From Rhodococcus sp. P1Y (lineage in GTDB: Bacteria; Actinomycetota; Actinomycetes; Mycobacteriales; Mycobacteriaceae), in NCBI RefSeq assembly GCF_003641205.1, contig NZ_CP032762.1:2604001-2668000 (forward strand): a stretch of 64,000 nt of DNA, in the 5' to 3' direction. A program made the translations under genes and the position numbers. Shown here in pieces: positions 5,495 to 20,000 of this stretch; position 1 is the first letter of the stretch, and every line of letters begins with the position of its first letter. The notes under the pieces were generated by a model. The model was not told the origin of the DNA. It did no database searches and worked only from the letters and a program-made list of their open reading frames with translations.

Positions 5495-6858
5495 TGCTGC
5501 GTGACGGGCGCTCGGTGGTGCCCGACAATCGCTTCGACCTTGCACCGGAGCCTGCTGGGCTGCCGACGGTCAGTGTCGTGATTCCGTACTACGACCAGCC
5601 GCGACAGCTCGATCTCGTGCTCGCTGCCCTGACATTGCAGGACTATCCGCCGGAGAAGATCGACGTAGTCGTTGCCGACGACGGCTCGGCGGTGCCGCCC
5701 GCGCTAGGTCCGTGGACCCCGCGGCTCGACGTGTCTTCGGTTCGCCAGGAGGACGAGGGGTTCCGCGCTGCCGCGGCACGAAATCTTGGCGCCGCGGCGT
5801 CCGTCGGAACGATTCTGTGTTTCCTGGACGCCGACACCGTGCCCGCTCCGGACTACCTACGCCGAGCTGTCAGGCTGCCCTCGGTGCTTCCCGACGCGCT
5901 GGTGGTCGGACGCCGGAAGCACACAGACCTGTCCGAGTTCACGCCGACATCGCTGCGCCGGTGGATGGCCGACGCTGTACTCCGACAGGATTCGAACGAG
6001 AACGAACCGTCCTGGTTGGTCGACGGTTACCGCCGGACCGACAATCTGCTTTTCCCGGGATGGGACGGATACAAATACATCATCAGTGCGGTGCTGACCT
6101 GCAGTCGTGAATTGTTCGACGATGTAGGCGGTTTCGACTCTTCGTTCACGAGTTACGGTGGTGAGGACTGGGAGTTCGCGAACAGGGCGTTCATGATGGG
6201 AGCCGTGTTCGCACACGAACCCGATGCTGTTGCCTGGCACGACGGACCCGATTGGGGCGAGCGAGACGTCGCACGCAGGACCGAGCAGAAGAACGGCGAG
6301 GCCCTCGCGCTGGCGCCGCTGATCACCGATCCTGCGGCTCGGATGGCGGGTTTGCGGTATCGCGTACCCGACGTCGCGGTAACGGTGTCGGTCGATGGAC
6401 ACTCGCCTGCATCGCTGACGAGCACCGTCGCCTCGATACTTCGGCAGGGCGACTGCGCAGTGTGGCTGGTCGGCGAAGACGCGGAAGCCGTTCACGGCCG
6501 GCTGGGGGTGTGGGACTCACGCATTCGAATCGGTCGGCCGGACGAGTCGATACTCGGTCGAGCCCGATTTTCGATCGACGTCGTGGGCCGCGTGCGCTTC
6601 GCGGACGAATCGCTGAACAAGATGGAAGACCTACTCGGGCCGGGCCGAGCGGGCGGCGTCGTCGTCGAGTTCGAAGTGTCGTCCGGTGCGTCGGTGACGG
6701 TCTGGACCTCGCGGGCGATTCATCGCGCACGACGGTGGGTGAGCTACTCGGACTTCGACGACAGCGATCTTCGCACCGCGTTGTTCGGTGTTCGGCACGT
6801 CGGCACCGTCGACCTGGGTCTGACGGTCGTCGCCGACGAACCGTGGTTGAGCTGGTAG
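5491..6858 (+). CDS. Family 2 glycosyltransferase with C-terminal extension
   Basis: 455 aa. I used the ATG at 5491 that overlaps the upstream stop; a second ATG follows immediately. The GT2 domain has TVSVVIPYYDQP, VVVADDGSAVPP and ILCFLDADTVP (DXD), then FDSSFTSYGGEDWEFANRA, the GGEDWE active-site motif of GT2/GT7 enzymes. About 150 C-terminal residues after this are not part of the catalytic fold and are unassigned. It is the last gene of the rightward glycan operon. Confidence 0.85.
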   Translation: MMLRDGRSVVPDNRFDLAPEPAGLPTVSVVIPYYDQPRQLDLVLAALTLQDYPPEKIDVVVADDGSAVPPALGPWTPRLDVSSVRQEDEGFRAAAARNLGAAASVGTILCFLDADTVPAPDYLRRAVRLPSVLPDALVVGRRKHTDLSEFTPTSLRRWMADAVLRQDSNENEPSWLVDGYRRTDNLLFPGWDGYKYIISAVLTCSRELFDDVGGFDSSFTSYGGEDWEFANRAFMMGAVFAHEPDAVAWHDGPDWGERDVARRTEQKNGEALALAPLITDPAARMAGLRYRVPDVAVTVSVDGHSPASLTSTVASILRQGDCAVWLVGEDAEAVHGRLGVWDSRIRIGRPDESILGRARFSIDVVGRVRFADESLNKMEDLLGPGRAGGVVVEFEVSSGASVTVWTSRAIHRARRWVSYSDFDDSDLRTALFGVRHVGTVDLGLTVVADEPWLSW

Positions 6859-6940
6859 CACATAGAATGAGACTCCTGTCACGCAGATGTCGAGGTCGCC
6901 GCCGATCCGCGCGATCATGGACCGAGACGAGAGGAGATCG

Positions 6941-7624
6941 ATGGCGCAGCAACCGTCCGGCACGAATGACGTGCGGTACATCGCCGACTCCGTGGAACCT
7001 CCGGGCGATGCGCTCCGCACCTACGGTGGCCGATCCGTCGATGATCGCCGAGCCGAGCGGCGATCGAAGTTCCTGGCCGCCGCGCTGGACGTCTTTTCCG
7101 AAAAGGGTTACACCGCAAGCTCGGTAGCAGATCTCTGCAAGGCGGCCGGGCTTGCCCGCCGACAGTTCTACGACGAGTTCGCCAGCCGCGAGGCTGCTCT
7201 CATCGCGCTCTACGACTCCATTCAGGCGGACGCCAAGGTTGCAACCACCGAGGCATTGAGCCGCACCGATTCAACCGATCCTCACGATCTCGCGGCCGTA
7301 GCGATGGCAGCGTACGTCGAATCCATCGGAAGCGACGCACGACGAGCGCGAATTTCGTTCGTCGACAGCGTCGGAGTCAGTCCGATGATGGAGAAGCATC
7401 GAATGGACGAGCGGGCTGTGTGGCGTCAGTTCTTCGAGAGCACCATTCGGGGCGCAGTGGGTGTGGACTACGTGCCGCCCGGGGGCTATTCGATGGCGTC
7501 GACAGCCTTCATCGGCGCGCTCATTGCCTTGGTTCAACAATGGAGCACGACGGAACCTCGGCCGCCGATCGACGATCTCACGGACGTCATGGTTGCCTTC
7601 CTGGATTCGATCATCTCCCGCTGA
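6941..7624 (+). CDS. TetR-family transcriptional regulator
   Basis: 227 aa from the ATG at 6941, preceded by GAGAGGAG. The frame is open upstream, but only this start has a good ribosome binding site. The N-terminal HTH spans roughly residues 40-85 (SKFLAAALDVFSEKGYTASSVADLCKAAG region, ending in RRQFYDEFASREA). The ligand domain is helical and unassigned. A strong palindrome lies 70 bp downstream, in front of the lipase gene, so it probably represses the lipase and perhaps itself. Confidence 0.85.
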   Translation: MAQQPSGTNDVRYIADSVEPPGDALRTYGGRSVDDRRAERRSKFLAAALDVFSEKGYTASSVADLCKAAGLARRQFYDEFASREAALIALYDSIQADAKVATTEALSRTDSTDPHDLAAVAMAAYVESIGSDARRARISFVDSVGVSPMMEKHRMDERAVWRQFFESTIRGAVGVDYVPPGGYSMASTAFIGALIALVQQWSTTEPRPPIDDLTDVMVAFLDSIISR

Positions 7625-7694
7625 CCTGTGTCGCGGCTTCAAGTGCGGCGAGGGTTGTAATCCATGTCACTTGGCTCTACTGTCCATTCCAATC

Positions 7695-7720
7695 GAAGTT
7701 AGACATCGATATCTAACTTC
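7695..7720. promoter_or_regulatory. 26-bp near-perfect palindrome, probable TetR operator
   Basis: The arms GAAGTTAGA and TCTAACTTC are exact reverse complements around a core with a central ATCGAT. Only one symmetric pair (C against A) breaks the symmetry. It lies 20 bp before the lipase GTG and just after the TetR gene. Position and symmetry suit a TetR dimer site. Binding is inferred. Confidence 0.65.
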
Positions 7721-7740
7721 TCGGTCGGGGAGGTTTCGTT

Positions 7741-9108
7741 GTGTTGAAGAGCAGATGGGTTGGGTGCGCCCTCGCTGGGCTGGTTGCGCTGGCGCCGCTG
7801 ACCATGGGTCTACCCGCGGGGGCGCAGCCGATACCCGCGTTCCCGAAAATCCCCGAGCTCGACGCGGAGTTCTACTCTCCGTCCGCCGATATCGTCGAAG
7901 CGGCGTCGCCGGGGGAGATCATCTCGTCACGCCCGGTCAACGTCGCGAACCTGGGGGTCATCCCGGTCAATGTCGATGCGTGGCAATTGTCCTACCGGTC
8001 CAACAACAGCCGGGACGTGGCGATTCCTGCCGTTGCCACCGTTCTGAAGCCTCGTGGCGTAACGACCGAACCACGGCCGCTGCTGTCGTATCAGATCGCC
8101 GAGGACTCTCTCGGCGGATACTGCGCGTCGTCCTATGTGCTGCAACAAGGTTCGATTCCATGGCCGCTGACCGGCGCCGTCACCGGCGGCGGGCAGTTCC
8201 TGGAGATTCAAGCAGCCCTCGCGCAGGGGTGGGCAGTGGTGGTCCCCGACCATCAGGGGCCGAACTCCTCGTTCGCGTCGGGTCCACTGGCAGGGCGGAT
8301 CACGTTGGACGGAATCAGGGCGGCCGAGAATTTCGACCAGCTCGGTCTCGCGGGCAGGGACACCAAGGTGGGCATGCTCGGCTATTCCGGTGGCTCGATC
8401 GCGACCGGCCATGCGGCTGAGCTGCGCAGCTCGTATGCGCCTGATCTGAACATTGTCGGAGCGGCCGAAGGCGGCATCGTCGCGGATGTCGGGGCGCTCG
8501 TGGACAACGCGAACAATGCGCTCGGCTCGGGCATCGTCGCCTCCGGAATCATCGGCGTGAGCCGCGAGGACCCCGAGATGGCCACGTTCGTCGCGCAGCA
8601 CCTGAATCCTCTCGGCCAGGCCTTGTTCGCCGCCAAGGACAACCTGTGTGTCGCGTGGAATTCGTCGATCTTCCCGTTCTTGAATCTCAAGGGATTGTTC
8701 GACACCCCGGGTGATCCCCTGCTCGAGCCGGAGGCCCAGCGCGTTCTCGCCAAACTCCGAATGGGACAACGGGTTCCCGATGTCCCGATGTACATGTTCC
8801 AGTCGAATCCCGATTGGCTCGTACCCGTCGGACCGGTCAACCGATTGGTCGACGCCTACTGCGCAGACCCCGCCGCGAGCGTCGTGTACACGCGGGACCA
8901 TTTCAGTGAGCACCTGACCCTCGACGTGATCGGCTTGCCGAAGGCGCTGTTGTGGCTGGGAGACCGCTTCGCCGGAATACCTGCGCAACAGGGCTGCAGT
9001 ACTACCGACGTCGGGTCGATGGCACTGGATCCCGAGACGTGGCCGGTGTGGCAGCGCACGGTGGGCGACCTCGTAGCAGGGTTGTTCGGGACGCCGATCG
9101 GTTCCTAA
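7741..9108 (+). CDS. Secreted lipase (LIP family, alpha/beta hydrolase)
   Basis: 455 aa from a GTG preceded by GGGGAGG. The first 28 residues are a signal peptide: a basic start, hydrophobic ALAGLVALAPLTMGL, then AGAQP. The nucleophile elbow GYSGGS (Ser216) and the fold order match the secretory-lipase family found in mycobacteria, rhodococci and Candida. Asp and His of the triad probably lie in the C-terminal third (near NPDWLVPV and RDHFSEH). It would hydrolyse acylglycerols or similar esters outside the cell. Probable control is by the upstream TetR through the palindrome. It ends tail-to-tail with the next gene (4-bp overlap). Confidence 0.85.
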   Translation: MLKSRWVGCALAGLVALAPLTMGLPAGAQPIPAFPKIPELDAEFYSPSADIVEAASPGEIISSRPVNVANLGVIPVNVDAWQLSYRSNNSRDVAIPAVATVLKPRGVTTEPRPLLSYQIAEDSLGGYCASSYVLQQGSIPWPLTGAVTGGGQFLEIQAALAQGWAVVVPDHQGPNSSFASGPLAGRITLDGIRAAENFDQLGLAGRDTKVGMLGYSGGSIATGHAAELRSSYAPDLNIVGAAEGGIVADVGALVDNANNALGSGIVASGIIGVSREDPEMATFVAQHLNPLGQALFAAKDNLCVAWNSSIFPFLNLKGLFDTPGDPLLEPEAQRVLAKLRMGQRVPDVPMYMFQSNPDWLVPVGPVNRLVDAYCADPAASVVYTRDHFSEHLTLDVIGLPKALLWLGDRFAGIPAQQGCSTTDVGSMALDPETWPVWQRTVGDLVAGLFGTPIGS

Positions 9109-10115
9109 TCGGTCCTGTCGTGTTCTCCAGCTGCCCGGCCGAAGGGGCGGGCAGCTCGCCGTGCCTCGAAGCGCGACAGGACCGCACGAGCACATCGGAC
9201 AACCGTTCCCCGATCGTGCGAGACCACGTATTCGAATTCGCGTTCGTGGTCGCTGTTGCCGCTGTGTAGATCTTTGGCGGAGAGGGTGCAGCAGAAGAAC
9301 TGACCGAGAACGACAACGTTCCACTCCTCGACCAAGTCGTCTACCGGATCGAGCGAGCAGGTTACGATTCCCGGCGTCGAGACATCGGCCATCTCGATGC
9401 CGTACACACCGGTGTAGGCGGTCCTGGCGGCCATTGTCTGCCAGCGTCGCCTTGTGCGGGTGGAGAATTGGCGGGCGTGCTGAAATGTGCCGAGGGTCAA
9501 CGTGTCCGGTCCGGCGTCGGACGCCTGTAACTCGATCTGCGTGCTCATCTCGATGAGGAGTTGCTTGGTGCTGACCGTGCTGGGCTGTTCGGCGGACGCG
9601 ATGTCGAACGGTGAACGAGAGTCCGCTGGCGGCGTACTCCACGTCGGTGTGGTCATCGGTCCCTTTGCCGGGTACTTGGCAGCGGAGACGGGCGGGAACA
9701 GTTCGCCCATTCCATAAGTCGCGCCCAGGGCCAGTGCCCGTCTCCGGTGACGTTCGGAGTCGACGCCGCTCGCGATGATGACTGCACCGGTGCGTTCGGC
9801 TTGAGCAGCCAACACGTGAAGTGCGCGTGCAGCGGCGGAGACATCGGCGTTCGCGCCTGCGAGTTCCGGGGCGAGAACGATGATGTCGGGTTCGATGAGG
9901 GGCAATATCGACAGCGACTCCGGCCGGGTGCCGACATCGGTTACCGCGATCCGACGGTGTTCGTCTCTCGCGCGGTCCACCCGGGCCAGCAGGTCCGCAG
10001 GATTCGACATCAAGGATCTGTCGTCGACGACACAGGCGTCGGAGAGCAGGTCGACCCGATGCGCGCCGCTGTCTACGAGGGTCAATTCCGATGCTGGACT
10101 TCGCCCGGTACTCAC
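9105..10115 (-). CDS. DICT-domain sensory protein
   Basis: 336 aa from a GTG. The N-terminal 150 residues look like a degenerate EAL-type barrel (ESLSILPLIEPDIIVLAPELA and VIIASGVDSERHRRRALALGATYGMG) without obvious catalytic acids. Residues from about 180 to 310 resemble the DICT sensory domain. Its features are STKQLLIEMSTQIELQA, a central FQHARQFSTRTRRRW stretch and VVLGQFFCCTLSAKDL. DICT domains are found with diguanylate cyclases and EAL proteins in actinobacteria and cyanobacteria. The assignment is from pattern memory, and the signal sensed is unknown. Confidence 0.55.
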   Translation of the reverse strand: MSTGRSPASELTLVDSGAHRVDLLSDACVVDDRSLMSNPADLLARVDRARDEHRRIAVTDVGTRPESLSILPLIEPDIIVLAPELAGANADVSAAARALHVLAAQAERTGAVIIASGVDSERHRRRALALGATYGMGELFPPVSAAKYPAKGPMTTPTWSTPPADSRSPFDIASAEQPSTVSTKQLLIEMSTQIELQASDAGPDTLTLGTFQHARQFSTRTRRRWQTMAARTAYTGVYGIEMADVSTPGIVTCSLDPVDDLVEEWNVVVLGQFFCCTLSAKDLHSGNSDHEREFEYVVSHDRGTVVRCARAVLSRFEARRAARPFGRAAGEHDRTD

Positions 10116-10137
10116 CCGGTTACTGCGCTACGAGTGG

Positions 10138-10230
10138 TCACGGTACGGCCGCAGCCAGAACGGCCGTACCTAGAGCGCCTACCGCGAAAATAAGAGCTGC
10201 ATCCTCGTGTGCGCACGCCACGTCTTCCAT
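10138..10230 (-). CDS. Possible 30-aa membrane microprotein
   Basis: A short leftward frame with a good AGAGAGAA ribosome binding site six bases before the ATG at 10230. The peptide has a polar start (MEDVACAHED) and one hydrophobic helix (ALIFAVGALGTAVLAAAV). It lies just upstream of the DICT gene on the same strand. No family is recognised and it may be spurious. Confidence 0.3.
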   Translation of the reverse strand: MEDVACAHEDAALIFAVGALGTAVLAAAVP

Positions 10231-10433
10231 GTTCTTCTCTCTGCAGACTCCGACGGTGTCCAGCGTGACCGAAGAACATTTCTGCGAAGCCAACCGTTGT
10301 GTCACGACTTCATAACGGAAATAACGTAAAGATAACGGCTATCGGTGCTCGCAACTGTGTATGGGCGGACGGTCGAAGACGCCGCCCGACGCTTCGAACG
10401 GGTAGTCGCTGGGCCCGTGGCACACTGCAGATC

Positions 10434-10525
10434 ATGACCGACGTCGAGGTGCCAACTGCTGTAGTCGAACTGGCACGAAGCGCAGAGCGTATTGCTGTCT
10501 TGACCGGAGCCGGGATGTCCGCCGA
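10434..10525 (+). pseudogene. Sirtuin (NAD-dependent protein deacylase), 5' fragment
   Basis: From the ATG at 10434 the frame reads MTDVEVPTAVVELARS and then IAVLTGAGMSAE, the sirtuin NAD-binding glycine motif. It then runs into foreign sequence and stops at 10539-10541. The remainder of the gene, starting with SAESGIPTFR, lies 9.5 kb away at 19993. Joining the two at the shared 8 bp TCCGCCGA restores the family motif GAGMSAESGIPTFR without a frame change. The gene is therefore split by the integrated element and is presumably inactive while the element is in place. Confidence 0.9.
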
Positions 10526-10542
10526 AACCAGCATGCGATAAC
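10518..10542. other. attL of the integrated element
   Basis: It contains the 8-bp core TCCGCCGA (10518-10525), shared exactly with the right junction at 19993-20000. The core is followed by the element-side arm ending in ATGCGATAAC (10533-10542). That arm is the reverse complement of GTTATCGCAT at 19982-19991 beside the other junction. The reconstructed attP therefore carries a 10-bp inverted repeat around the core, as expected for a large serine integrase. Confidence 0.85.
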
Positions 10543-10566
10543 AGCACTCCGTGGCAGAATGCCGAT

Positions 10567-11988
10567 ATGACGACACCCCGGATGGTCACCTACGCCCGTG
10601 TGAGCATGGACCGATCCGGCGTCGGCAAGTCCGTCGAACAGCAAGTAGACGCATTGCAGGCCGAAGCTCTGGCACACGGGTGGACTCTCGGCCCGGTAGT
10701 GAAGGACGTCGGTATCGGGGCATCGCGGTTCTCGACCAAGGATCGACCCGGCTACGCCCAACTGAAAACGATTCTCGAATCCGGTGACATCCTGGCCGTG
10801 TGGGAAACCTCTCGCGCTACTCGTCGCACGGATGAATGGGCCGCGCTGACCGAGCTGTGTCGCGCCCGTGGTGTCCGTCTGTTCACCGGTACCCGGTTGC
10901 TGGACCTCGACGACCCGGACGACGAGCAGCAGGCCAATCAGAGCCACGTCGCCGCCGTCTACGAGACAGCGAAGACCCGAAAGCGCGTCAAGCGCGACGT
11001 CGACGCACGGGCGAAGCTCGGTAAGGTGCACGCTCAACTCGGATTCGGATACCGACGCGTGTTCGACCCCGCAACCGGCGACAAGACATGGGAACTCGAC
11101 CCCGTGGCAGCCGACGCAATCCGAGAAGCAGTGGACGGACTGCTGGCCGGAACAACGACGATCTATCGAATAGTTAAGCGCTGGAACGATTCCGGTCTGA
11201 CTACGAGCACGGGTAAACCGTGGCAGACTCGCACTCTGCGGCAGATGCTCCTCCGTGAGTCATTGGCCGGTATCCGTGTGCTGCGCGGTCAGAAGCTCGA
11301 CGGCCCTGCCGTGTGGGAGCCGATCATCACCGAGTCGCAGCACCGGCAACTCGTGGCGCGGTACGGCAATCAGGCCGACCCGAACCCACGGCGCGGACTC
11401 GAAGTGAAACACCTGCTGACCGGCATCGCCACGTGTTACAAGTGCGGCCAAACGGTCAACTGGCAGAATCGGCCCGACAAGGTTCCCCAGTATCGTTGTC
11501 CTACAGGCCATGTCAGCCGCCAGGCCGAGGAGGTCGACAAGCTCGCAGTGCGCCACCTACGCCGGTTGATAGAGCAATGGAGGGTCGACGGATTCTTCGC
11601 CGAGGCAGAACCGGACGCCGCGCACGAACACCTCGAAGAGGCCGCACGGCTGGAAAAGCTGCTGGCCGACGTCGACGCAGCCTACTCACGCGGTGATATC
11701 TCGATAGACCGTCTGGCGGCGCAGGAGACGGCACTACGACCCCGGATCGAGGCAGCCCGTGAACGTGCCGCGTCCGTCGCGACGAACCCGATTCTGTACG
11801 CGCTGGCGTTCGATTCGGCGGTGACGTGGGAGAGTGCTGATGTGCCGCAGCGCCGGTCGTTCGTGCGTGCGTGCCTGCGGATCGAGATACAGCCGACCGG
11901 TAGGGGGCAGCGCGTGTTCGATCCGGCGTCGGTGGCGTTCTGGGACATCAGTCGCGGCGCGTCGTCGATCCTGCTGCTCAAAGAATGA
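10567..11988 (+). CDS. Large serine recombinase (integrase)
   Basis: 473 aa, beginning 25 bp inside attL. The resolvase domain has YARVSMDRSG with nucleophile Ser13, then the SVEQQ motif and WETSRATRRTDEW. The recombinase domain (about 150-260) has GFGYRRVFDP and RTLRQMLLRESLAGIR. A zinc ribbon follows (CYKCG near 290 and YRCPTGH near 315). A coiled coil at about 350-410 (rich in E, L and A) is the part that controls directionality in this family. It would insert the element at the sirtuin attB and excise it with an accessory factor. Length is typical for phage serine integrases. Confidence 0.95.
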   Translation: MTTPRMVTYARVSMDRSGVGKSVEQQVDALQAEALAHGWTLGPVVKDVGIGASRFSTKDRPGYAQLKTILESGDILAVWETSRATRRTDEWAALTELCRARGVRLFTGTRLLDLDDPDDEQQANQSHVAAVYETAKTRKRVKRDVDARAKLGKVHAQLGFGYRRVFDPATGDKTWELDPVAADAIREAVDGLLAGTTTIYRIVKRWNDSGLTTSTGKPWQTRTLRQMLLRESLAGIRVLRGQKLDGPAVWEPIITESQHRQLVARYGNQADPNPRRGLEVKHLLTGIATCYKCGQTVNWQNRPDKVPQYRCPTGHVSRQAEEVDKLAVRHLRRLIEQWRVDGFFAEAEPDAAHEHLEEAARLEKLLADVDAAYSRGDISIDRLAAQETALRPRIEAARERAASVATNPILYALAFDSAVTWESADVPQRRSFVRACLRIEIQPTGRGQRVFDPASVAFWDISRGASSILLLKE

Positions 11989-12010
11989 GATTCATTTGAC
12001 TCTGGACACG

Positions 12011-12051
12011 ACGATGGCCCCGGCAGGCTAGACACCAACCGAGGCCATCGT
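12011..12051. terminator. Hairpin after the integrase gene
   Basis: Arms ACGATGGCC and GGCCATCGT (9 bp) lie 22 bp after the integrase stop with a 23-nt loop. There is no T-run. It is a plausible intrinsic terminator separating integrase from the early operon. Confidence 0.4.
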
Positions 12052-12386
12052 GCCAGCGGACATCACTTCGCCAGCAAACAGAACCCACACAACCCTCGTC
12101 AAGAGAGAACCCATCGTAAGGCCGGTGGTCCGTCGGCAGCAACGTTTCGTCATGTCACGAGTGACCGTGCGGCGTACGTAAGAAGGGCCCGATGTTTGGC
12201 CGCATCTGGATACCCTCCATGGTTACGCTCAGCTTTGCGCCGTAATGCACCACAGTTCCCGGTCTGGTCGGGACATCGGCAGCACCTCAGCACCTCCGAA
12301 GGCACCTCAGAGCATCGCACCGTGGACGAACCAGAGTCCAGTCGAGTGGAAGCCGCTCTGTCACAGCAATATTCGGAAGGACAGCC
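12052..12386 (+). promoter_or_regulatory. Gene-free leader before the early operon of the element
   Basis: About 335 bp with no convincing gene in either direction. Three copies of GCACCTC occur close together (starting at 12282, 12290 and 12302), and GGAAGGA precedes the ATG at 12387. This is the logical place for the early promoter and for repressor or excisionase binding. No repressor gene is evident in the element. Confidence 0.35.
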
Positions 12387-12572
12387 ATGCCGGAATATTT
12401 CTTCACCCTGGACGAGGTAGCCGCAACCCTCAAGCTCCAAAAGCGCACCATTCAGTACTACATCAGCCGAGGGCAGCTCAAAGCGCACAAGCTCGGCACC
12501 GCCCAGAACTCGCCCGTACGGATCGCTCAGGCCGACCTCGACGCGTTCCTGACTACTCAGCGCGCACGATGA
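12387..12572 (+). CDS. Excisionase-like helix-turn-helix protein
   Basis: 61 aa with ribosome binding site GGAAGGA. It reads MPEYFFTLDEVAATLKLQKRT, then IQYYISRGQLKAHKLG and a conserved basic wing before DLDAFL. This is the winged MerR/excisionase fold (HTH_17). In phiRv1 a protein of this type acts as the recombination directionality factor. It is first in a tightly overlapping operon (ATGA with the next gene). Confidence 0.75.
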   Translation: MPEYFFTLDEVAATLKLQKRTIQYYISRGQLKAHKLGTAQNSPVRIAQADLDAFLTTQRAR

Positions 12573-12718
12573 AGATGTACGGGCAAGTCAGTGGGCAGCG
12601 CCGTGACGACGATCAGACCGCCGACGCCGCCGAGATAGCCGATAAGCGCCGTCGACGTCTAGCCCAGGATCAGAGCGCACGAACCGTCTTCGACCTGTTG
12701 CCGGGTGGTGATCGCTGA
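12569..12718 (+). CDS. Small charged protein, unknown function
   Basis: 49 aa. Starts at the ATG overlapping the excisionase stop and ends in TGATG shared with the next start. Hydrophilic, with a central KRRRRLAQDQ stretch. No family is recognised. The two-sided translational coupling is the main support. Confidence 0.55.
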   Translation: MKMYGQVSGQRRDDDQTADAAEIADKRRRRLAQDQSARTVFDLLPGGDR

Positions 12719-12870
12719 TGTCCACGCGTAACGAGTCAGCCGCAGCGAAACAGCACACGTCCCGATGTGCAGTGTGTGGAGCGAAGCCCCGGCACGGTCG
12801 CATGCGCGATTGGAAATTCACATGCGGCGAATTACTGTGCCCGCAACACAGGCCGGTGATGGAGCAGTGA
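12718..12870 (+). CDS. Small zinc-finger-like protein
   Basis: 50 aa. The ATG overlaps the previous stop (TGATG) and the stop overlaps the GTG of the ATPase gene (GTGA). It contains CAVCG near residue 17, a second cysteine near 36 and CPQH near 41. This spacing could bind one zinc ion. Phage-type zinc-ribbon proteins of this size are common; the partner is unknown. Confidence 0.6.
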   Translation: MSTRNESAAAKQHTSRCAVCGAKPRHGRMRDWKFTCGELLCPQHRPVMEQ

Positions 12871-13913
12871 GCGACGAAATCATTTGGGCAGAGAAACTTC
12901 TCACCCTGGACGGCCTGAAGAACCTACCGACGCCGGAACCGATCATCGACAAGTTTCTCTACGCCGACACACTCGCGCAGATGTCCGGCCAACCAGGTAC
13001 GTACAAATCGTTCCTGGCGCTGAGTTGGGCGTGCGCGATCGCGTCCGGCTTGGAGTCGTGGGAGGGCTTCCCGGTGCGCAAGTGCGGCAAGGTCGTCTAC
13101 ATCGCATCCGAGGGTGCGTCGGGTGTGCTGCTGCGCGTGCTCGCATGGGCCGAGGCGACACTACCCGGACCACGCAACGCCGGTAAACGAGCTGCACTGC
13201 GTGAGAACCTGCTCGTACTACCCGCCCCGTTGCAGTTGGGGGCGCGGGGGCAGTACACGTCGTTCGCTGAGCAGGCTGTCGAACTCAATCCGGTGCTGGT
13301 GGTGTTCGACACACGTTCGCGCTGTACCTCCTCGCTGGACGAGAACAGCGCCAAGGACATGGGTGACGCCGTCAACGCCGCAGACCTCATTCGGCACAAG
13401 ACGGGCGCGACGGTGTTGTTCGTGCATCACATGGCACGAAGCGGAACGGCAGCCCGAGGGTCGACGGTGTTCGATGGCGCGGTTTGGACGAACCTGATTC
13501 TGAAATCGGACCGCCTCAAGCTCATCGTCACCGTCGACAAGCACAAGGATGTGGAGACACCCGAGCGCCCGTACTACTTCGACATGAAGCCCTGGACGGT
13601 GGCAAATCAGGCACTCGCACACCTCCCCGAAGAGCGTCGAACGAGCCTGGTTGTCATGACGGCTGGAGTCTCAAAACCCGATGAGACAAAGGGGTCGAAA
13701 TCTCACGAAACCGGAGCGAAGTTGTCTCAGTTGGTGTCTCAACACGCGGACATCGATGGGCTTACCGGCGCGATGATCGTCAAGCTCGCCAACGAGTTCG
13801 ATATCTCGCGTCCGACGGTCCTCAGATGGCTTCCCAAGCTGGTCAAGGACGGTGCGCTGAAGCATGTCGATCCGAACAAGCGCCCTCTTCGCTACCTTCC
13901 CGCAGTTGGTTAG
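12867..13913 (+). CDS. AAA/RepA-like ATPase (replication helicase-type)
   Basis: 348 aa. I chose the GTG at 12867 because it overlaps the preceding stop; the frame is open upstream only through that gene. Walker A is GQPGTYKS (41-48). Walker B is LVVFDTRSRC near 145, and VLFVHHMARSG follows. This is the AAA_25/RepA hexameric helicase pattern. The last 65 residues form a winged helix (GAMIVKLANEFDISRPTVLRWLPK split over two helices). phiRv1-type elements carry a primase/helicase-like protein at this position. It probably unwinds or replicates the excised element, perhaps at the adjacent repeat region. Confidence 0.8.
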   Translation: MSDEIIWAEKLLTLDGLKNLPTPEPIIDKFLYADTLAQMSGQPGTYKSFLALSWACAIASGLESWEGFPVRKCGKVVYIASEGASGVLLRVLAWAEATLPGPRNAGKRAALRENLLVLPAPLQLGARGQYTSFAEQAVELNPVLVVFDTRSRCTSSLDENSAKDMGDAVNAADLIRHKTGATVLFVHHMARSGTAARGSTVFDGAVWTNLILKSDRLKLIVTVDKHKDVETPERPYYFDMKPWTVANQALAHLPEERRTSLVVMTAGVSKPDETKGSKSHETGAKLSQLVSQHADIDGLTGAMIVKLANEFDISRPTVLRWLPKLVKDGALKHVDPNKRPLRYLPAVG

Positions 13914-14037
13914 CGCGGTGAACTGTCTCAAAGTCTCATTTGAAGTCTCACTGAAATCTCACTCGAAATCTCAAGTCTCACTGACTGGGGGGTCTTTAGA
14001 CCCCAGGAGGAATGAGACAACCGCTAAATCTCACGGA
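13664..14037. repeat. Cluster of TCTCA/TGAGA repeats, possible replication origin
   Basis: The 5-mer TCTCA (or TGAGA) recurs about a dozen times in 370 bp, mostly as GTCTCA or AAATCTCA. It begins in the last 250 bp of the ATPase gene and is densest in the gene-free stretch 13920-13985. Six or more direct copies there are spaced about 8-12 bp. The arrangement resembles iterons next to a rep gene. Function as an origin, or as a binding site for the ATPase winged helix, is inferred. Confidence 0.55.
13989..14004. other. Short perfect hairpin in the repeat region
   Basis: GGGGTCT and AGACCCC pair perfectly across a 2-nt loop, directly after the last dense repeat and before the next operon. There is no T-run. 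It could be a terminator for the upstream operon or a structural part of an origin. Confidence 0.4.
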
Positions 14038-14051
14038 ATTGGAACTTACTT

Positions 14052-14312
14052 ATGACCACCAACAGCGCACCCAACACCAGCGCCCACTACCTCACCGCCC
14101 GAGAGCTGAAGGTGCTGCGCGTTCTCGACGGCCACGGCCCCCAGACGCTCAAAACACTACGTAACCTCACCGGACTACCCAAAGCGGTCATCTGGACGCT
14201 CACAAGCGCTCTCAGCGACCTAGGCGACATCGCCGAAGACCGGACGGTCCCACAAAGCCAGGAGACCCAGTACGTCATCACCGACAAGGCCCGTCTGGAG
14301 CTACACGCATGA
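14052..14312 (+). CDS. Winged-helix protein of the element
   Basis: 86 aa. It has LTARELKVLRVLDGHGP followed by TLKTLRNLTGLPKAVIWTLTSAL, a winged HTH of MarR/ArsR type, then a beta wing ending QYVITDKARLELHA. It could regulate the downstream structural genes. The ribosome binding site is weak (GGAA). It overlaps the next gene by ATGA. Confidence 0.6.
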   Translation: MTTNSAPNTSAHYLTARELKVLRVLDGHGPQTLKTLRNLTGLPKAVIWTLTSALSDLGDIAEDRTVPQSQETQYVITDKARLELHA

Positions 14313-14527
14313 TGACGCGCTACTGCAAGCGCCCCAGGGGTCGACGGGACATTCTGGGTCCGTGTCCCGTGTGTGGAGCCCCGGCTGTATTAGTTCGGAG
14401 CATGGACCGCTTCTATCACGCCAACGGTTCGGATTGTTCCGCCTGTATCCGCGAGATGGGCATGGTTCCGAACTACCCCAAGCCGGAAGACTTCGCAGCA
14501 CTAGACGAACGGTACGACGACGAATGA
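14309..14527 (+). CDS. Small zinc-ribbon protein
   Basis: 72 aa starting ATGATG at the previous stop. It contains CPVCG near residue 19 and CSAC near 43, a typical Cys4 pair. Acidic C-terminus. Function unknown. Overlaps the next gene by ATGA. Confidence 0.6.
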   Translation: MMTRYCKRPRGRRDILGPCPVCGAPAVLVRSMDRFYHANGSDCSACIREMGMVPNYPKPEDFAALDERYDDE

Positions 14528-14709
14528 TGACGCGCACGGATCAACTACTCCTCCGAGTTCGATCACATGTCCACGGTGAGACTCTGGAAAGCCTGGAAAG
14601 AGCAGGATTCACGCCCTGGGAAGTCGAGAGGCAGATCGGATACGGGCATCTCCGAGCCGGCGAGAACGGCCGAATTACCTACGTATACAACGACGAAGAC
14701 GCATCGTGA
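14524..14709 (+). CDS. Small protein, unknown function
   Basis: 61 aa. Starts ATGATG overlapping the upstream stop and ends GTGA into the next gene. The sequence reads LESLERAGFTPWEVERQIGYGH, then a short beta tail (RITYVYNDED). No family is recognised; operon position supports it being real. Confidence 0.55.
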   Translation: MMTRTDQLLLRVRSHVHGETLESLERAGFTPWEVERQIGYGHLRAGENGRITYVYNDEDAS

Positions 14710-14909
14710 AGGCGAAGATAGCCAGCACATGCCCGCTGTGCAACGGTCCGATACGACTCGGACAGGAGATCACCTACTACCTGCTCGACGGTAGATACAA
14801 GTGGGTCTGCTGCAGGAAACCCGAAGCGAACGAACCGAAGCCTAGAAGCCGCATGTGGAACGAAGGCAAGTTCGCAGTACCTCGACGAAAGAACGGTAGA
14901 AGATCATGA
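14706..14909 (+). CDS. Small zinc-finger-like protein
   Basis: 67 aa from a GTG that overlaps the previous stop. It has CPLCNGPIRLGQEITYY and later WVCC, a treble-clef-like Cys4 pattern seen in many phage and restriction-associated small proteins. Basic C-terminus (PRRKNGRRS) suggests nucleic-acid binding. Overlaps the next gene by ATGA. Confidence 0.6.
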   Translation: MKAKIASTCPLCNGPIRLGQEITYYLLDGRYKWVCCRKPEANEPKPRSRMWNEGKFAVPRRKNGRRS

Positions 14910-15175
14910 CCGACGAAGAACAGCTAGAGATAATCAACCGCAACACCTCCACGCTGCTACTGCACGCGATCGGTTTACAGTCCGAGGAAGTCCGACAACA
15001 GATCAGAGATAACCCTGGGATCACCGGACGTATCGAGGGTGAATCGGTCGAGTACTACGCGGGAGATGTGTTGCTGGCGACCGTCGACCGAGAAACGCTT
15101 GCCGATCCCGACTTCGACGTCAACAGCGGCCAGTTCGTCACAGCGCCCGACGACATCTCCGAGCTGCTGGACTGA
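14906..15175 (+). CDS. Acidic protein of unknown function
   Basis: 89 aa, last of the overlapping small-gene operon. N-terminal helix (EEQLEIINRNTSTLLLHAIG), then a short beta-rich half (VEYYAGDVLLATVD) and an acidic tail. I do not recognise it. A 180-bp gap follows, which must hold the promoter for the capsid genes. Confidence 0.55.
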   Translation: MTDEEQLEIINRNTSTLLLHAIGLQSEEVRQQIRDNPGITGRIEGESVEYYAGDVLLATVDRETLADPDFDVNSGQFVTAPDDISELLD

Positions 15176-15356
15176 AAGTTTGTAGCTAACCGCGCAGGCC
15201 GATAGACTCGGCACCGAACAGAGAACTACCGAGCGAACTGGTTTGGCCGTCCGATTGGATGTGCGCCGGATTGCAGTTAACGCCAGGTGGCAGGCTCATT
15301 CGGTGCCGGGTCGATCGACCTGTGGGCACATTCACCAAACCCGAAGTGAGACAACG

Positions 15357-15986
15357 ATGGCCACAAAGCCAGCACTCACGCGGAGTTTCGACGTTCCTTT
15401 TGAAGTGCGATCCACCGAGGACGACGGTGACGGTTTGACTATCGAGGGCTACGCAACAGTCTTCGACACCGACACCGAGATCCATTCGTACGAAGGCCAC
15501 TTCATCGAACGTATCGCTAAATCCGCGTATCCGAAAAATGCAAAGTTTCCGCAGATGCAGTTCAACCACGGGCGCGATGTCCGGGTCGGCGCTGTACCGA
15601 TCGGTGCGTATACCGAGGTCCGTCCCGACGATCACGGCCTGTTCGTGCGTGGACGACTGTTCGACAACGATCTGGTTCTACCCGTACGCCAAGCTATCGC
15701 AGGCGGGGGTATCACCGGAATGTCGATCACCATGAACGTTCTACGCGACACATGGCAGAACAGCCGAGGTAAGTATCTGACGCTGCAAGAAGTCGAAACC
15801 GCGCTGTACCACCCAAACGGTGACCCGATCCGACGCACCATTACGTCGCTCTCCGTGAGCGAATGCGGCCCCGTAGTGAGACCCGCGTACGCGACGACAT
15901 CGGTAGGCGTTCGATCCAACGCACCGCGCACACTCAGCATTTCAGCCGCACGGCGGCAACTACAACTGATCGATTTAGGAAGGTAA
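15357..15986 (+). CDS. HK97-family prohead protease
   Basis: 209 aa from the ATG at 15357. The frame is open to 15243, but the family start is MATKPALTRSFDVPFEVR. It contains IEGYATVFD, QMQFNHGRD (the conserved His) and TGMSITMNV, with Ser in place for the serine protease dyad/triad. It would cleave the N-terminal scaffold part of the capsid protein during assembly. The capsid gene follows 4 bp after the stop, as in HK97-type heads and in phiRv1/phiRv2. Confidence 0.9.
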   Translation: MATKPALTRSFDVPFEVRSTEDDGDGLTIEGYATVFDTDTEIHSYEGHFIERIAKSAYPKNAKFPQMQFNHGRDVRVGAVPIGAYTEVRPDDHGLFVRGRLFDNDLVLPVRQAIAGGGITGMSITMNVLRDTWQNSRGKYLTLQEVETALYHPNGDPIRRTITSLSVSECGPVVRPAYATTSVGVRSNAPRTLSISAARRQLQLIDLGR

Positions 15987-15990
15987 GAAG

Positions 15991-17454
15991 ATGAGTAGAC
16001 GACGTAAGAACACCGCGACAGCGGGCAACAACAACGGCGCAGCCGACACGCTCGGACTCCGTGGACTCAACGGAGACGCTGCCGAGAGCCGCCGCGAGGA
16101 ATTGCGTTCGGAGCTGGCTAATCTGGTGCACGAAAACGAGACACGCGGCGAACTCGACGAGAACGAGAGTTCCCGATGGGACGAGCTAACCGAGGGTATC
16201 GAATTCCTCGACGACCAGGCCGAGCGCTTCGCCGAGGCAGTAGCACTCGTTCACGGTGGGCACTCCGAGGACTCGTCCAAGCGCACTCACGGCCCGTCGA
16301 CACGCACTGCACCGACCGAGCGTGACGCGGTACTCCGCAACCTCGACGGCGACGTCAAAGCCAAGAACATGACCGAGGACGCCGCAGGCACGGTGGAAAA
16401 GCTGCTCGGTGGCGACGAGGGTCGTTCGGTCACTCGGTGGGCTCGTGCAGTCGGAGACCCGGCGTACAGGACCGCATTCGCAAAACTGGCCGTCGATCCC
16501 GACCGTGGCCACCTGGAGTGGACCGCAGCCGAGGCGGACGCGTACAGGGCCGTACAGACCGTTTCTCGTGCACTCAACGAGGGCACCGGATCGCAGGGCG
16601 GGCACCTCGTGCCGCTGAGTCTCGATCCGTCGATCATTCTGACGTCGGGAGGGTCGGTCAATCCGATCCGTGAGATTGCAAGGAACGTGACGATCACCGG
16701 GCAGGCGTGGCGTGGTGTCTCGAGTGCTGGTGTGACCGCTGAGTGGACGCCGGAAGCCACCGAAATGGCCGATGCATCTCCGACACTCGCGAATCCTGTT
16801 ATCCCCGTGTACAAGCAGGATGCGTTCATCCCATTTTCGTGGGAGGTCGAGCAGGACAGTGCAGGCGATTTTCTGGCCGAGCTACAGGCTCTGTTGGCCG
16901 ACGGACTCGAACAGCTCACGGCAACCGCGCTCACGACCGGCACAGGCACCAATCAGCCGAGGGGCGTAGTCACCGCGTTGCTCGCCGCAGGTGCACCGTA
17001 CATCCTCACGCCGGGTACGCCCGAGGTTGTGTCTGCAGCGGACATCTTCCGACTCCAGAGCGCGCTACCGCCGAGGTTCCAGCCGAACGCACAGTGGGCC
17101 GTCAATCTCGGTAACCTCAACGTGCTCAGGCAGTTCGAAACCGGAAACGGGGCGTTGAAATTCCCCGAGCTGGCCGACGGGCGTTTGCTCAACCGCAAGA
17201 TCAACGAAGTATCGAGCCTGGACGATATCAACCCGGCTGTGACCGATACGGCGAATGTTGTTGTGGTCTATGGTGATTGGTCCAACTATGTGGTGGTCAA
17301 CAGAATTGGGACAACGCTAGAGTTTATTCAGAATCTGGTCGGACCGAGCCGTCGACCCACCGGACAGCGCGGGGCAGTCATGTACGCCCGTGTCGGCGGG
17401 GACGTCGTCAATCCCAACGGATTCCGAGCGCTGAACGTTGCCACAACCGCGTAA
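15991..17454 (+). CDS. HK97-fold major capsid protein
   Basis: 487 aa. Residues 25-85 are charged and helical (SRREELRSELANLVHENETR and beyond), matching the delta/scaffold domain removed by the protease. From about 195 on it follows the phage_capsid pattern. It has GGHLVPLSLDPSIILTSGG, later PVIPVYKQDAFIPFSWEVEQD and LTTGTGTNQPRGV, and ends with VGGDVVNPNGFRALNV. It is full length. It would self-assemble into a shell, but without portal or terminase it needs a helper phage. Confidence 0.92.
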   Translation: MSRRRKNTATAGNNNGAADTLGLRGLNGDAAESRREELRSELANLVHENETRGELDENESSRWDELTEGIEFLDDQAERFAEAVALVHGGHSEDSSKRTHGPSTRTAPTERDAVLRNLDGDVKAKNMTEDAAGTVEKLLGGDEGRSVTRWARAVGDPAYRTAFAKLAVDPDRGHLEWTAAEADAYRAVQTVSRALNEGTGSQGGHLVPLSLDPSIILTSGGSVNPIREIARNVTITGQAWRGVSSAGVTAEWTPEATEMADASPTLANPVIPVYKQDAFIPFSWEVEQDSAGDFLAELQALLADGLEQLTATALTTGTGTNQPRGVVTALLAAGAPYILTPGTPEVVSAADIFRLQSALPPRFQPNAQWAVNLGNLNVLRQFETGNGALKFPELADGRLLNRKINEVSSLDDINPAVTDTANVVVVYGDWSNYVVVNRIGTTLEFIQNLVGPSRRPTGQRGAVMYARVGGDVVNPNGFRALNVATTA

Positions 17455-17458
17455 TCTG

Positions 17459-17671
17459 GTGGCACCCTACAGTTTCACGACCGTAGATTCGGAAGGGTCT
17501 ACGGTCGTGGTACCGAGGGGCAGCCGGACCGAACGAGGTTCCGAGTACGCACTCCGTGACCCCGATCGATGGATCGACGAGCCCGAGAACTACTCAGCAT
17601 GGCTGTATGGCCTGGACTCGTTACCTCCGCGCACCGCAACGTATGCCCCGGTTTATCCGATGGCAGACTGA
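17459..17671 (+). CDS. Possible small protein after the capsid gene
   Basis: 70 aa from a GTG 4 bp after the capsid stop. It reads APYSFTTVDSEGSTVVVPRG and ends with LPPRTATYAPVYPMAD. Codon use looks coding. No ribosome binding site is visible and a strong hairpin (17476-17509) lies inside its start, so it may not be translated. Confidence 0.35.
   Translation: MAPYSFTTVDSEGSTVVVPRGSRTERGSEYALRDPDRWIDEPENYSAWLYGLDSLPPRTATYAPVYPMAD
17476..17509 (+). terminator. Strong hairpin 22 bp after the capsid gene
   Basis: Perfect 12-bp arms, CACGACCGTAGA and TCTACGGTCGTG, with a 10-nt loop. There is no T-run, as is common for actinobacterial terminators. It probably ends or attenuates the capsid transcript. 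Confidence 0.6.
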
Positions 17672-17860
17672 ATTGATCTTCCCGAACAGGCGATCGCGTG
17701 TTCGCACACAACCGATGCGGCATCACGTTCGGGATCGCTTACCGGCTAGCCGCCCGAAACCGCCGAGCTGGTGAGCAACGTAGCCCCGATCTTTGTTTCA
17801 GCGCAGGAGCTTCTTCTCGATTCCTCCGAGCGCTGGCAGAGGTCGGGGCTTTCGTGTTAT

Positions 17861-18286
17861 CTACACCGTCGCTGGCGTGAGCGCCGCAGTCAGTCCTCTG
17901 AACAATGCAGCAACCACAATCTCTGTTGCTTGACCTGTCGTGTTCCATGTCTTGCTGAACAGTGATTGCGTTGTGTCGCTTGTTATCCAACCAACGTTGA
18001 CCAACCACTCGAAGTGCATACCACCCAACCCGAACACGCCACCGTGAACCGAGTAGAGGAAGCGCGCCACCCATGCCAGTGCGTAGAGCGTGAGAGACAG
18101 TGCAGCACCGACAGCTACCACCATGCCAACCGTTGCAGTCAGTGCTAGTTGCATCGTTGTTCGAATGATCATTGTTGTTGCTTGTTCAGTTCGTTTGTGT
18201 TGCAACAGCTTCACTGTCTTCAGCGTGAGAGTGATTGCGGTGGAACGGATGTGGTCGGTGCGCTGGCTGGCGACTGTGGCGTCCAT
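17861..18286 (-). CDS. Cargo membrane protein, unknown function
   Basis: 141 aa. The first 38 residues are polar and may be partly non-coding, since an internal ATG at 18172 (MIIRTTMQLALTATVG) is an alternative start. Two or three hydrophobic segments follow (ALTATVGMVVAVGAALSLTL, then ALAWVARFLYSV). The gene is noticeably richer in A/T than its surroundings, with TTG and GTT runs, consistent with transferred cargo. It lies at the end of the leftward block of the element. Confidence 0.5.
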   Translation of the reverse strand: MDATVASQRTDHIRSTAITLTLKTVKLLQHKRTEQATTMIIRTTMQLALTATVGMVVAVGAALSLTLYALAWVARFLYSVHGGVFGLGGMHFEWLVNVGWITSDTTQSLFSKTWNTTGQATEIVVAALFRGLTAALTPATV

Positions 18287-18745
18287 GGTCTGTGGCGTCC
18301 TGGTCTGTGGGTTGGGATGACGATGCGTCTACTTATCTCAACACCACTATGCGCCTTGGCATTCCAACGTGTCCAGTACCCGTGCCCATAGGCTGGAGCG
18401 GATGACGGATGAATGGCTATGCATCGCCGTGGATGGTGGCCGATGGTAGGGGGGGAGGGGTCGGACGTAAAAATCCGGAGGTGGCCGACCCCGCTCTCGG
18501 CCCGATATCTCTCTCTGATGAAAAATCCTCACAAAACGCCTGGTCAGAGGCTTAAACCGCAGGTCAAACAGGGTAGGTTTTGAGTTTTTCAGATTTTTGT
18601 GCTTTCGGGGTGGCCAAATAGGCTACTTTTGACAGGACAAACAGTCAAAGTTTCTGCATGGTTTGTGGATATTTTTTGGATGAAATCGGCCCGTCGACTT
18701 CTCCGTGATGAGACTTCGATGGGTCGATTTTTCCGTGTGCACGGC
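18287..18745. other. A/T-richer gene-free stretch in the element cargo
   Basis: About 460 bp with no convincing gene. The part 18540-18680 is unusually rich in T and A (several TTTTT and TTTTTT runs). The direct motifs AGGTCAAAC and ACAGTCAAA occur nearby. It separates the leftward two-gene block from the membrane-protein gene and may hold that gene's promoter. Confidence 0.4.
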
Positions 18746-19030
18746 CTAGTCAGGTGCACGAAACCCGCCCAGCAAGTTGATTCGATTCTCGCGTATGGCG
18801 TCCAGTGCGCCGTCCTGGATCTGCACGAGCTTGTGATCAAGGGTGTAGTTGTCGCCGCGCTTGGTGCGCTGTGCCGTCACGCGGCGTGCGTAGTGGTCCA
18901 GCCGTGCGAGTGCCGCGTCATCGCCATCGACGGGCCTGAGTAGGAGTTCCTCCCGCGCCGTCGCCCAGAACACCGCCGCATCGTGCAGCTGTTCGCTGGT
19001 GGCTCTCTCGGCTTCATCGTCTGTAGCCAT
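18746..19030 (-). CDS. Small cargo protein, unknown function
   Basis: 94 aa with a textbook ribosome binding site (GGAGGT, seven bases before the ATG at 19030). It is helical and charged, reading LHDAAVFWATAREELLLRPV and then LDHYARRVTAQRTKRGDNYT. No family is recognised. It follows the Ymh-family gene by 110 bp on the same strand and may be its partner. Confidence 0.6.
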   Translation of the reverse strand: MATDDEAERATSEQLHDAAVFWATAREELLLRPVDGDDAALARLDHYARRVTAQRTKRGDNYTLDHKLVQIQDGALDAIRENRINLLGGFRAPD

Positions 19031-19140
19031 CTCTCACACCTCCGGTATCGTCCAGCGACCGCTTAGCTCAATCGTCCTCCTATAGGCGCGCACGCACAGC
19101 GGAACGCCCCCGACTGCGTGGTGAGACGAGCCGTCGCGCA

Positions 19141-19929
19141 CTACCTCTCGTCGGCGGATTCCTCCAGCTTCTCGCACTCGTCCACCCAGCGCGCCAGCAC
19201 ACTTAGCGCGGACAACTGTTCGAGCGCTACCTGCTTCGGAATCTCGTCGACCGAGTGTGTCAGTGGATTTCGAATCGCTTGGAAGCAGCCCACGGAGAAC
19301 GCGCGGATGCCGTCGTTCATCGCTTTCACGGTGAGGGCAGCAGGATCGCCGGGCCAGCGCAGGCGCGGACGGCTCTGTTTCGGCGGCGCGGACGAAAATG
19401 CCTCCTGCATAAGCGCTGCATCGTTCAGGTCATAGCGCCCGATCAAATCCTGCACGTGCCCGCTCAGGTTTGTCGCTGCACGCTGCACGGCCATTCCGTG
19501 GTGACCACTTGCCCACAGAGTCGACGCTGGTGCCCACACAGAGGTGTGCAGCTTATCGGCGGACAGCGTGGGAGCAGTCGACCCGAGAGCTTTGGTGATG
19601 TCGGCGCTTCTATCGAGAGAGCCGAGAGCCTGCCGGACAAGGGTCGCACCGGGAATAGTCTCAACGCGTTTCGGATCTTGGATCTTCGAGTACTCACGCT
19701 TGACGATGTTCGGGATCTGCGGGTTGTTGAGTACGCGGCGCACAATCTTCAGGGTGCTGATGTGCCGGTCAAACAGTTCATTGACAAGATCAATTCGTTC
19801 GATGTTCGCTGAGGTGTACGACGAGTAACGGATCTCTTCCAGCCGGTCGGCCAGCTTAAGCCAGGTCTGCAGCTCCACCTTGATGCGCGCTATGTCCACC
19901 TGATTGAGTTTAGGTGCGCCGACCGACAC
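19141..19929 (-). CDS. TIGR02391/Ymh-family protein, candidate phage-defence cargo
   Basis: About 262 aa from the GTG at 19929; another GTG at 19899 is possible. Longer frames cross attR into the sirtuin antisense strand and are rejected. The C-terminal third matches the Ymh (PF09509/TIGR02391) pattern. It has an LHTSVWAPASTLWASGHHG helix, NDAALMQEAFSSAPP, FSVGCFQAIRNPLTHS with the family RNPxxH motif, and a final LSVLARWVDECE helix. Family members are often found in mobile elements and defence islands and some resemble abortive-infection proteins. Placement next to attR is typical for satellite cargo. An anti-phage role is inferred. Confidence 0.7.
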   Translation of the reverse strand: MSVGAPKLNQVDIARIKVELQTWLKLADRLEEIRYSSYTSANIERIDLVNELFDRHISTLKIVRRVLNNPQIPNIVKREYSKIQDPKRVETIPGATLVRQALGSLDRSADITKALGSTAPTLSADKLHTSVWAPASTLWASGHHGMAVQRAATNLSGHVQDLIGRYDLNDAALMQEAFSSAPPKQSRPRLRWPGDPAALTVKAMNDGIRAFSVGCFQAIRNPLTHSVDEIPKQVALEQLSALSVLARWVDECEKLEESADER

Positions 19930-19981
19930 TGGTTGCGACCATGCGTTTTGGCCGGGAAGTAACCGGCTACGAACAACACCC

Positions 19982-20000
19982 GTTATCGCATTTCCGCCGA
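19982..20000. other. attR of the integrated element
   Basis: GTTATCGCAT (19982-19991) is the reverse complement of ATGCGATAAC at the left end. It is followed by the shared core TCCGCCGA (19993-20000), after which the sirtuin gene resumes in frame (GTCCGGGATACCC encodes the SGIP motif). Confidence 0.85.

Follow-up and report, generated by a model that had tools for sequence, protein, structure and literature searches.

A 9.5-kb integrated element of Rhodococcus sp. P1Y, probably a cos-type phage satellite with its own head-shell genes

We analyzed a 64,000-nucleotide stretch of DNA from Rhodococcus sp. P1Y (contig NZ_CP032762.1, positions 2,604,001 to 2,668,000; hereafter the window), which lies within a single 5.87-Mb chromosome. 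In this window, a 9,475-bp integrated element at positions 10518–19992 splits a sirtuin gene. Judging from its sequence, we consider it probable (about two chances in three) that the element is a phage satellite of the cos type (cos, cohesive-end site), which would make its own head shell and borrow the terminase, portal, and tail of a helper phage. The element thus probably travels using another phage's packaging motor and tail. As far as our literature search shows, three of its features are new: a cos-like site with a matching class of phages, a family of small proteins encoded before the protease gene (named UoP here), and a separate capsid clade.

Insertion site and gene content

The sirtuin gene starts with the ATG at 10434; its reading is broken at an attachment (att) core at 10518, is picked up again at 19993, and ends at 20664. 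The core, TCCGCCGA, is present at both 10518 and 19993, a spacing of 9,475 bp, and when the two ends of the element are joined it is flanked by a perfect 10-bp inverted repeat (GTTATCGCAT/ATGCGATAAC). An inverted repeat around the core is expected for the attP site of a serine integrase. The sirtuin gene runs uninterrupted over the junction point in 28 of the 29 relative loci examined, a count that leaves aside six further matching genomes for which no locus was returned. The 29th locus (L029, genome G018), from another species, has the same sirtuin site filled by its own, different element, whose integrase is 42% identical to that of the window and whose capsid is 64% identical over 472 codons. 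That one site holds two divergent elements, each with open genes, speaks for mobility. An earlier note on this DNA had described a 9.5-kb element with intact att sites, and the matching cores, their spacing, and the intact junction in relatives bear this out.

Element lengths are 9,475 bp in the window, 9,384 bp at L094, and 9,325 bp at L097, the three loci for which both ends are known; L094 and L097 are bounded by 23-bp repeats. These near-equal lengths, despite differing integrases and capsids, fit a packaging constraint on element length, as far as three elements can indicate one.

We searched the genes with Pfam, PHROGs, and NCBIfam profiles, and with PADLOC for defense. The features are as follows (window coordinates and strand; aa, amino acids; HTH, helix-turn-helix).

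10518–10525 (no strand): attL core TCCGCCGA, inside the sirtuin gene starting at 10434
10567–11988 (+): serine integrase, 473 aa (PF00239, E 9e-21; PF07508; phrog_95, E 8.7e-73)
12387–12572 (+): excisionase-type HTH protein, 61 aa (TIGR01764 above its cutoff; PF12728)
12867–13913 (+): AAA_25 (RepA-like) ATPase (PF13481, E 5e-31); start set by a simple gene caller, alternative starts at 12765 or 12819
14052–14312 (+): small winged-HTH-like protein, 86 aa (weak PF09339, E 0.0025, below its cutoff)
14309–14527 (+): small zinc-ribbon or Lar-like protein, 72 aa (PF14354, E 4e-5, below its cutoff)
14524–14709 (+): 61-aa protein, 41% identical over 56 aa to L047, the second element of the same genome; no Pfam match
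14706–14909 (+): zinc-finger-like protein, 67 aa, 66% identical over 56 aa to L047
14906–15175 (+): UoP, 89 aa, directly before the protease (ten-row alignment; structure model)
15354–15986 (+): prohead protease, S78 (PF04586, E 8.2e-19); alternative start at 15405
15991–17454 (+): HK97-type major capsid protein, 487 aa (PF05065, E 2.1e-39; TIGR01554)
17438–17671 (+): 77-aa protein overlapping the capsid stop, 50% identical over 68 aa to L028
18446–18550 (+): likely cos-like site (motif order, phage-end match, genome scans)
18746–19030 (−): 94-aa protein of unknown function (gene caller score; no Pfam match)
19141–19929 (−): Ymh/HEPN-type protein, probable cargo (PF09509, E 7.4e-22; weak PADLOC Aga_HEPN, E 0.0011)
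19993–20000 (no strand): attR core TCCGCCGA, where the sirtuin gene resumes, ending at 20664

The profile searches agree with the gene list given earlier from the letters alone (serine integrase, excisionase-like HTH, ATPase, micro-genes, protease, and HK97 capsid). Five short, mostly overlapping genes occupy 14052–15175, between the ATPase and the protease. The closest phage DNA to the protease gene is that of Rhodococcus phages REQ1 and Jflix2 (69% over about 307 nt). A longer frame of the Ymh/HEPN gene, to 20199, would cross attR.

Terminase, portal, tail, and lysis families had no match among the element open reading frames (ORFs) scanned, nor did the helper-capsid redirector families Sid, Ccm, and CpmAB. 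For a small terminase, there was no profile match among the scanned small ORFs, where short divergent proteins could escape. The whole host genome contained no match to TerL_ATPase PF03354 or Phage_portal PF04860, the only terminase and portal families searched there, so it holds no resident helper prophage with those two families. The earlier statement that the element has nothing for packaging thus holds for detected genes but not for sites, as a cos-like site lies in the right arm; both this site and the minus-strand Ymh/HEPN gene belong to parts that the earlier note did not mention.

The cos-like site and the ends of phages

An all-against-all comparison of 12 elements revealed conserved noncoding DNA downstream of the capsid gene, although the capsids and integrases differ. 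Its parts follow one order in 9 of the 12 elements: GTRGGGGGG, 26–31 nt, NNNYGACCCYG, and then a CT-rich tract. The window site, which lies on the same strand as the capsid gene, consists of GTAGGGGGGG (18446–18455), the dyad GGCCGA-CCCCGCTC-TCGGCC (18483–18502), the CT tract, and a 21-mer (18530–18550); the cut would be expected within the dyad, at 18495/18496. The core motif is half of a dyad whose perfect arms span 6–9 bp in the window, L028, L095, and L096 and are weaker in the other elements.

The right ends of five phages unused until then formed a test set. The right end of Rhodococcus phage Jflix2 reads GTAGGGGGG, 29 nt, GACCGACCCCGCT, and its left end, fetched afterwards, starts with CTTGGCCGCCC and continues to CCCTCTCT. 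When the ends are joined, the Jflix2 site becomes CCGACCCCGCT followed by CTTGGCC, as compared with CCGACCCCGCTCTCGGCC in the window. The dyad of both Jflix2 and Madraxi spans the junction of the physical ends, which we take to be the ends of the phage records, by custom of such records. The joined ends of Gordonia phage Eyre carry a dyad whose spacer starts with CC (CGGCGAC-CCCTGCGCTGA-GTCGCCG; one of five such plus-strand dyads), and those of Mycobacterium phage Brujita carry CCTGAC-CCCACCCCTCA-GTCAGG (one of three). No such dyad was present at the joined ends of RavenCo17 and Sbash.

A scan of both strands of Jflix2 (62,017 bp) found the full pattern a single time, at the end, and none of 40 genomes simulated with the dinucleotide makeup of Jflix2 contained it. 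Scanning 37 whole genomes of the genus returned six matches, all inside such elements, with the window's own genome contributing two; the reversed pattern, used as a control in the same genomes, returned 0 matches. These sequence matches indicate that the right-arm site is likely a cos-like site matching that of a phage, as a cos-type satellite would have. The proposal, already made in the earlier note, that the element borrows packaging from a helper gains support from a cos-like site common to the element and Rhodococcus phages. With a likely packaging site located to the exact base and matched to Rhodococcus phages of known sequence, helper dependence can be tested directly.

The 18-base core of the window's 21-mer, CACAAAACGCCTGGTCAGAGG, is exact in four elements (the window's, L029, L095, and L096), with the opposite orientation in L095 and L096. 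Rhodococcus phages Hiro and PhailMary and Mycobacterium phage Darrell have related motifs near their right ends, and the 18-mer also stands, with one mismatch, beside host tRNA genes. Using the 18-mer, we found two small IMG/VR contigs (L122 and L123) with serine integrase and HK97-like capsid genes (two in L122), each with the 18-mer just before the integrase.

Capsid relatives, UoP, and further elements

Capsid relatives at E ≤ 1e-10 were found in 3 of the 37 genus genomes and in 21 of 401 family genomes, the window's own included. We read the gene plans around them, among the matches listed, with a simple gene caller of our own. A search for the PF04860 portal in 19 of the 21 genomes placed one beside the capsid gene in G043, G210, and G399 and on another contig in G018, and among the capsid-bearing genomes a PF03354 TerL stood beside the capsid gene only in G399. 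Among the same matches, most other relatives appear to lie in short elements made up of an integrase, a replication gene, small genes, a protease, and a capsid gene. Three loci (L041, L042, and L044) are short elements with a long tape-measure-like gene, named by eye; their genomes had no match to the PF04860 portal or the PF03354 terminase.

In a tree of 30 capsids, all 14 short-element capsids, the window's included, formed one group (support 96/95), and all 13 complete-phage capsids fell outside it. The capsids of L041, L042, and L044 were also outside, nested among complete phages in three places. An earlier tree of 27 rows included L047, whose capsid fell outside the group on a very long branch, the grouping needing two changes; there are hence at least two capsid lineages among such elements. 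For the two closest relatives, the ratio of nonsynonymous to synonymous substitution rates (Ka/Ks) of the capsid gene was 0.22–0.27 (window versus L028, 0.24; versus L029, 0.22), and that of the protease gene was 0.20 for the window versus L028 and 0.39 versus L029, at Ks values of 1.1–1.6, near saturation. A larger parent prophage would, according to the earlier note, have spoken against a satellite; the element shows no sign of being a recent deletion product of one, given its own capsid clade and the divergent L029 element in the same sirtuin site.

UoP aligns with the genes at the same position in nine other elements at 16–28% identity (ten rows, chosen by eye). Its profile identified 13 places in 12 of the 401 family genomes, all in protease–capsid elements; nine of the 13 are members of the query profile itself. 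The other four (L094–L097, in G035, G011, G028, and G026) are further protease–capsid elements, with capsids of the second lineage (~420 aa, recognized by likeness to L047). In 12 of the 13 places, no gene separates UoP from the protease; L096 has one 85-aa ORF in between. In L029 and L035, the gene caller had merged UoP with the preceding frame, and L095 begins at a contig edge, its integrase being outside the view. UoP was not seen in L031, L032, L036, or L045; in its stead, L031 has a gene resembling a P27-type small terminase, by eye.

A tblastn search with UoP against 50,697 phage records (E ≤ 1) gave no match, and a protein-database search gave five hits, its own included. The structure model of UoP has two long helices and three strands (predicted local distance difference test score [pLDDT], 82.7), with no convincing match in a structure search. 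The small-gene block, on which the earlier note had bet as the home of an undescribed function, therefore holds a conserved gene for which we found no description. UoP offers a single small protein on which portal adaptation or helper interference could be examined.

The window's genome has a second element built on this plan, L047 (G000:C1:658001-678000, about 3640–12750), with a serine integrase, a protease, a capsid of the other lineage, UoP, and a cos-like site. It adjoins a DUF222/HNH-like gene (by eye), presumably a 13E12-type site, which recalls phiRv1. The short elements encode proteases of ~174–214 aa (253 aa in L036) and most complete relatives longer ones, of ~280–330 aa; REQ1 and Jflix2 have a single gene in which protease and capsid are fused. 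A small P-loop kinase-like gene, named by eye, recurs: two putative satellites have it downstream of the capsid gene, and complete phages or prophages have it close to genes for the head or terminase (L028, 8078–8590; L095, 3221–3733; L139, 16631–17026; L027, 4580–5020; L039, 15520–15975). Two groups of elements (L028 and L096; L094, L095, and L097) share neighbors across species: one site lies between rplM/rpsI-like and ESX-like genes and another beside an XdhC-like gene, all named by eye.

A possible satellite cycle, its alternatives, and known systems

Infection by, or induction of, a phage of the Jflix2/REQ1 kind would be the trigger for the element to excise and then replicate with its own ATPase. 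The helper terminase would recognize the satellite cos, and unit-length 9.5-kb DNA would be packed via the helper portal into a shell built of the satellite capsid and processed by the satellite protease, after which a helper tail would be added. UoP, encoded beside the head genes, would most likely match the satellite shell with a foreign portal or terminase, or else block helper heads; the Ymh/HEPN gene would be cargo and may shield the host from other phages. There is, in our estimate, an even chance that the element represents a widespread class between the cos-type Staphylococcus aureus pathogenicity islands (SaPIs) and the capsid-forming phage-inducible chromosomal islands (cf-PICIs). 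Such a class would be marked by an old, satellite-only capsid clade with its protease, no portal or terminase, a helper-type cos, and UoP as the hallmark that lets the satellite shell assemble on a foreign portal, and it would span several families of Actinomycetota, one capsid relative coming from a metagenome contig labeled Chloroflexi. Integrase-plus-capsid elements such as phiRv1 have so far been called candidate satellites with neither a helper nor a way of packaging demonstrated. If the satellite reading is true, a portal-less head shell would bear on how strictly phage head assembly requires a matched portal.

Several observations weigh against this reading. It is unusual for a head shell to come without a portal gene of its own. 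The site was not found in 3 of the 12 elements (L030, L033, and L036), and among the right ends of the five test phages, only that of Jflix2 had the full pattern: in three Gordonia phages just the G-run was present, in one of them as GCAGGGGGG, and the right end of ridax had no part of the pattern. The full pattern was also absent from the genomes of Eyre, Brujita, RavenCo17, and Sbash, and the joined site of Madraxi, CTGACCCCGCC followed by CTCGGCC, lacks the exact G-run. A prophage contig of G018, a genome that also bears a putative satellite, had no such site in the 17.4 kb covered. The host of Jflix2 is R. equi, and the phages compared all come from species other than the window's. Decay of the capsid or protease gene, which the earlier note would have counted against a satellite, is seen in part: both genes are intact in the two closest relatives, but the capsid gene has an in-frame stop in 2 of the 21 family genomes (G227 and G114).

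These stops, and the membership of capsid and protease in families that complete phages have, could be explained if the element were a cryptic prophage, left over from a complete phage by deletion, with its integration, replication, protease, and capsid genes kept by chance. The head genes of such a product should be nested among those of complete phages, whereas this capsid has its own clade; capsid and protease are under purifying selection, with Ka/Ks well below 1, the same gene plan recurs in many genomes, the att pair matches, and UoP and the cos-like site are conserved. We regard a cryptic prophage as highly improbable. Scarcely better placed is an interference island, in which the capsid and protease would sabotage the head assembly of an infecting phage, with Ymh/HEPN as a second defense and the element itself unpackaged: it would suit the defense-like gene and the finding of no portal or terminase, but a helper-type cos site and closely similar element lengths make sense only with DNA that is packaged.

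The conserved right-arm DNA might instead be an origin or regulatory site that phages also retain near their ends. Its absence from three elements, the occurrence of the 21-mer part in either orientation, and the near-match of the 18-mer beside host tRNA genes would fit; we nevertheless find this improbable, since the dyad straddles the physical ends of Jflix2 and Madraxi as expected of a cos nick site, and Eyre and Brujita also have dyads at their ends. We think it unlikely, too, that the satellite capsid acts like Ccm of SaPIbov5, co-assembling with the helper capsid and steering it to a small size, with cos packaging by the helper terminase. In favor of this, Ccm, from a cos-type SaPI, is homologous to the capsid protein of the helper (PMC8569155), and no portal gene was found in the element. 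Against it, the element encodes a prohead protease as well, and its capsid is a full-length HK97 protein whose clade is separate from the phages compared; Jflix2 has a protease–capsid fusion, so close co-assembly would need to bridge distant proteins.

As a cos-type satellite with its own shell, the element would share traits with several described systems. P4-type cos satellites are packed by the helper terminase through cos sites, and in P4 and cos SaPIs, as probably in the window element, the DNA carries such a site (PMC10690885, PMC8569155). Their heads, by contrast, consist of helper capsid protein made small by Sid or Ccm, whereas the window element has a complete capsid–protease pair. 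The cf-PICIs have their own capsid and protease and borrow tails (PMC10690885, PMC12409344), as the window element probably does, but they encode a portal, connectors, both terminase subunits, and an HNH protein; we found none of these in the window element, including, by profile scans of the element and by PF04860 and PF03354 across the host genome, the portal and large terminase that belong to the definition of cf-PICIs.

Mycobacterial integrase-plus-capsid elements, including phiRv1 and phiRv2, have already been proposed as candidate PICIs (PMC10654092); we compared phiRv1 and phiRv2 by this published description rather than by sequence. Like the window element, these are short integrated elements with integration genes, sometimes a serine integrase, and a major capsid gene. 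Unlike it, some have terminase or scaffold genes, and PMC10654092 names no packaging site for them, whereas the window element has a cos-like one; the same paper states that phage induction was not shown. The Streptomyces phage satellites Mulch and Flayer are likewise actinobacterial and have their own capsid genes, but they combine a full set of capsid and packaging genes with no obvious replicase (as described in PMC10690885), the reverse of the balance in the window element. A survey of actinobacterial prophages suggests that small elements may be satellites (PMC10023795).

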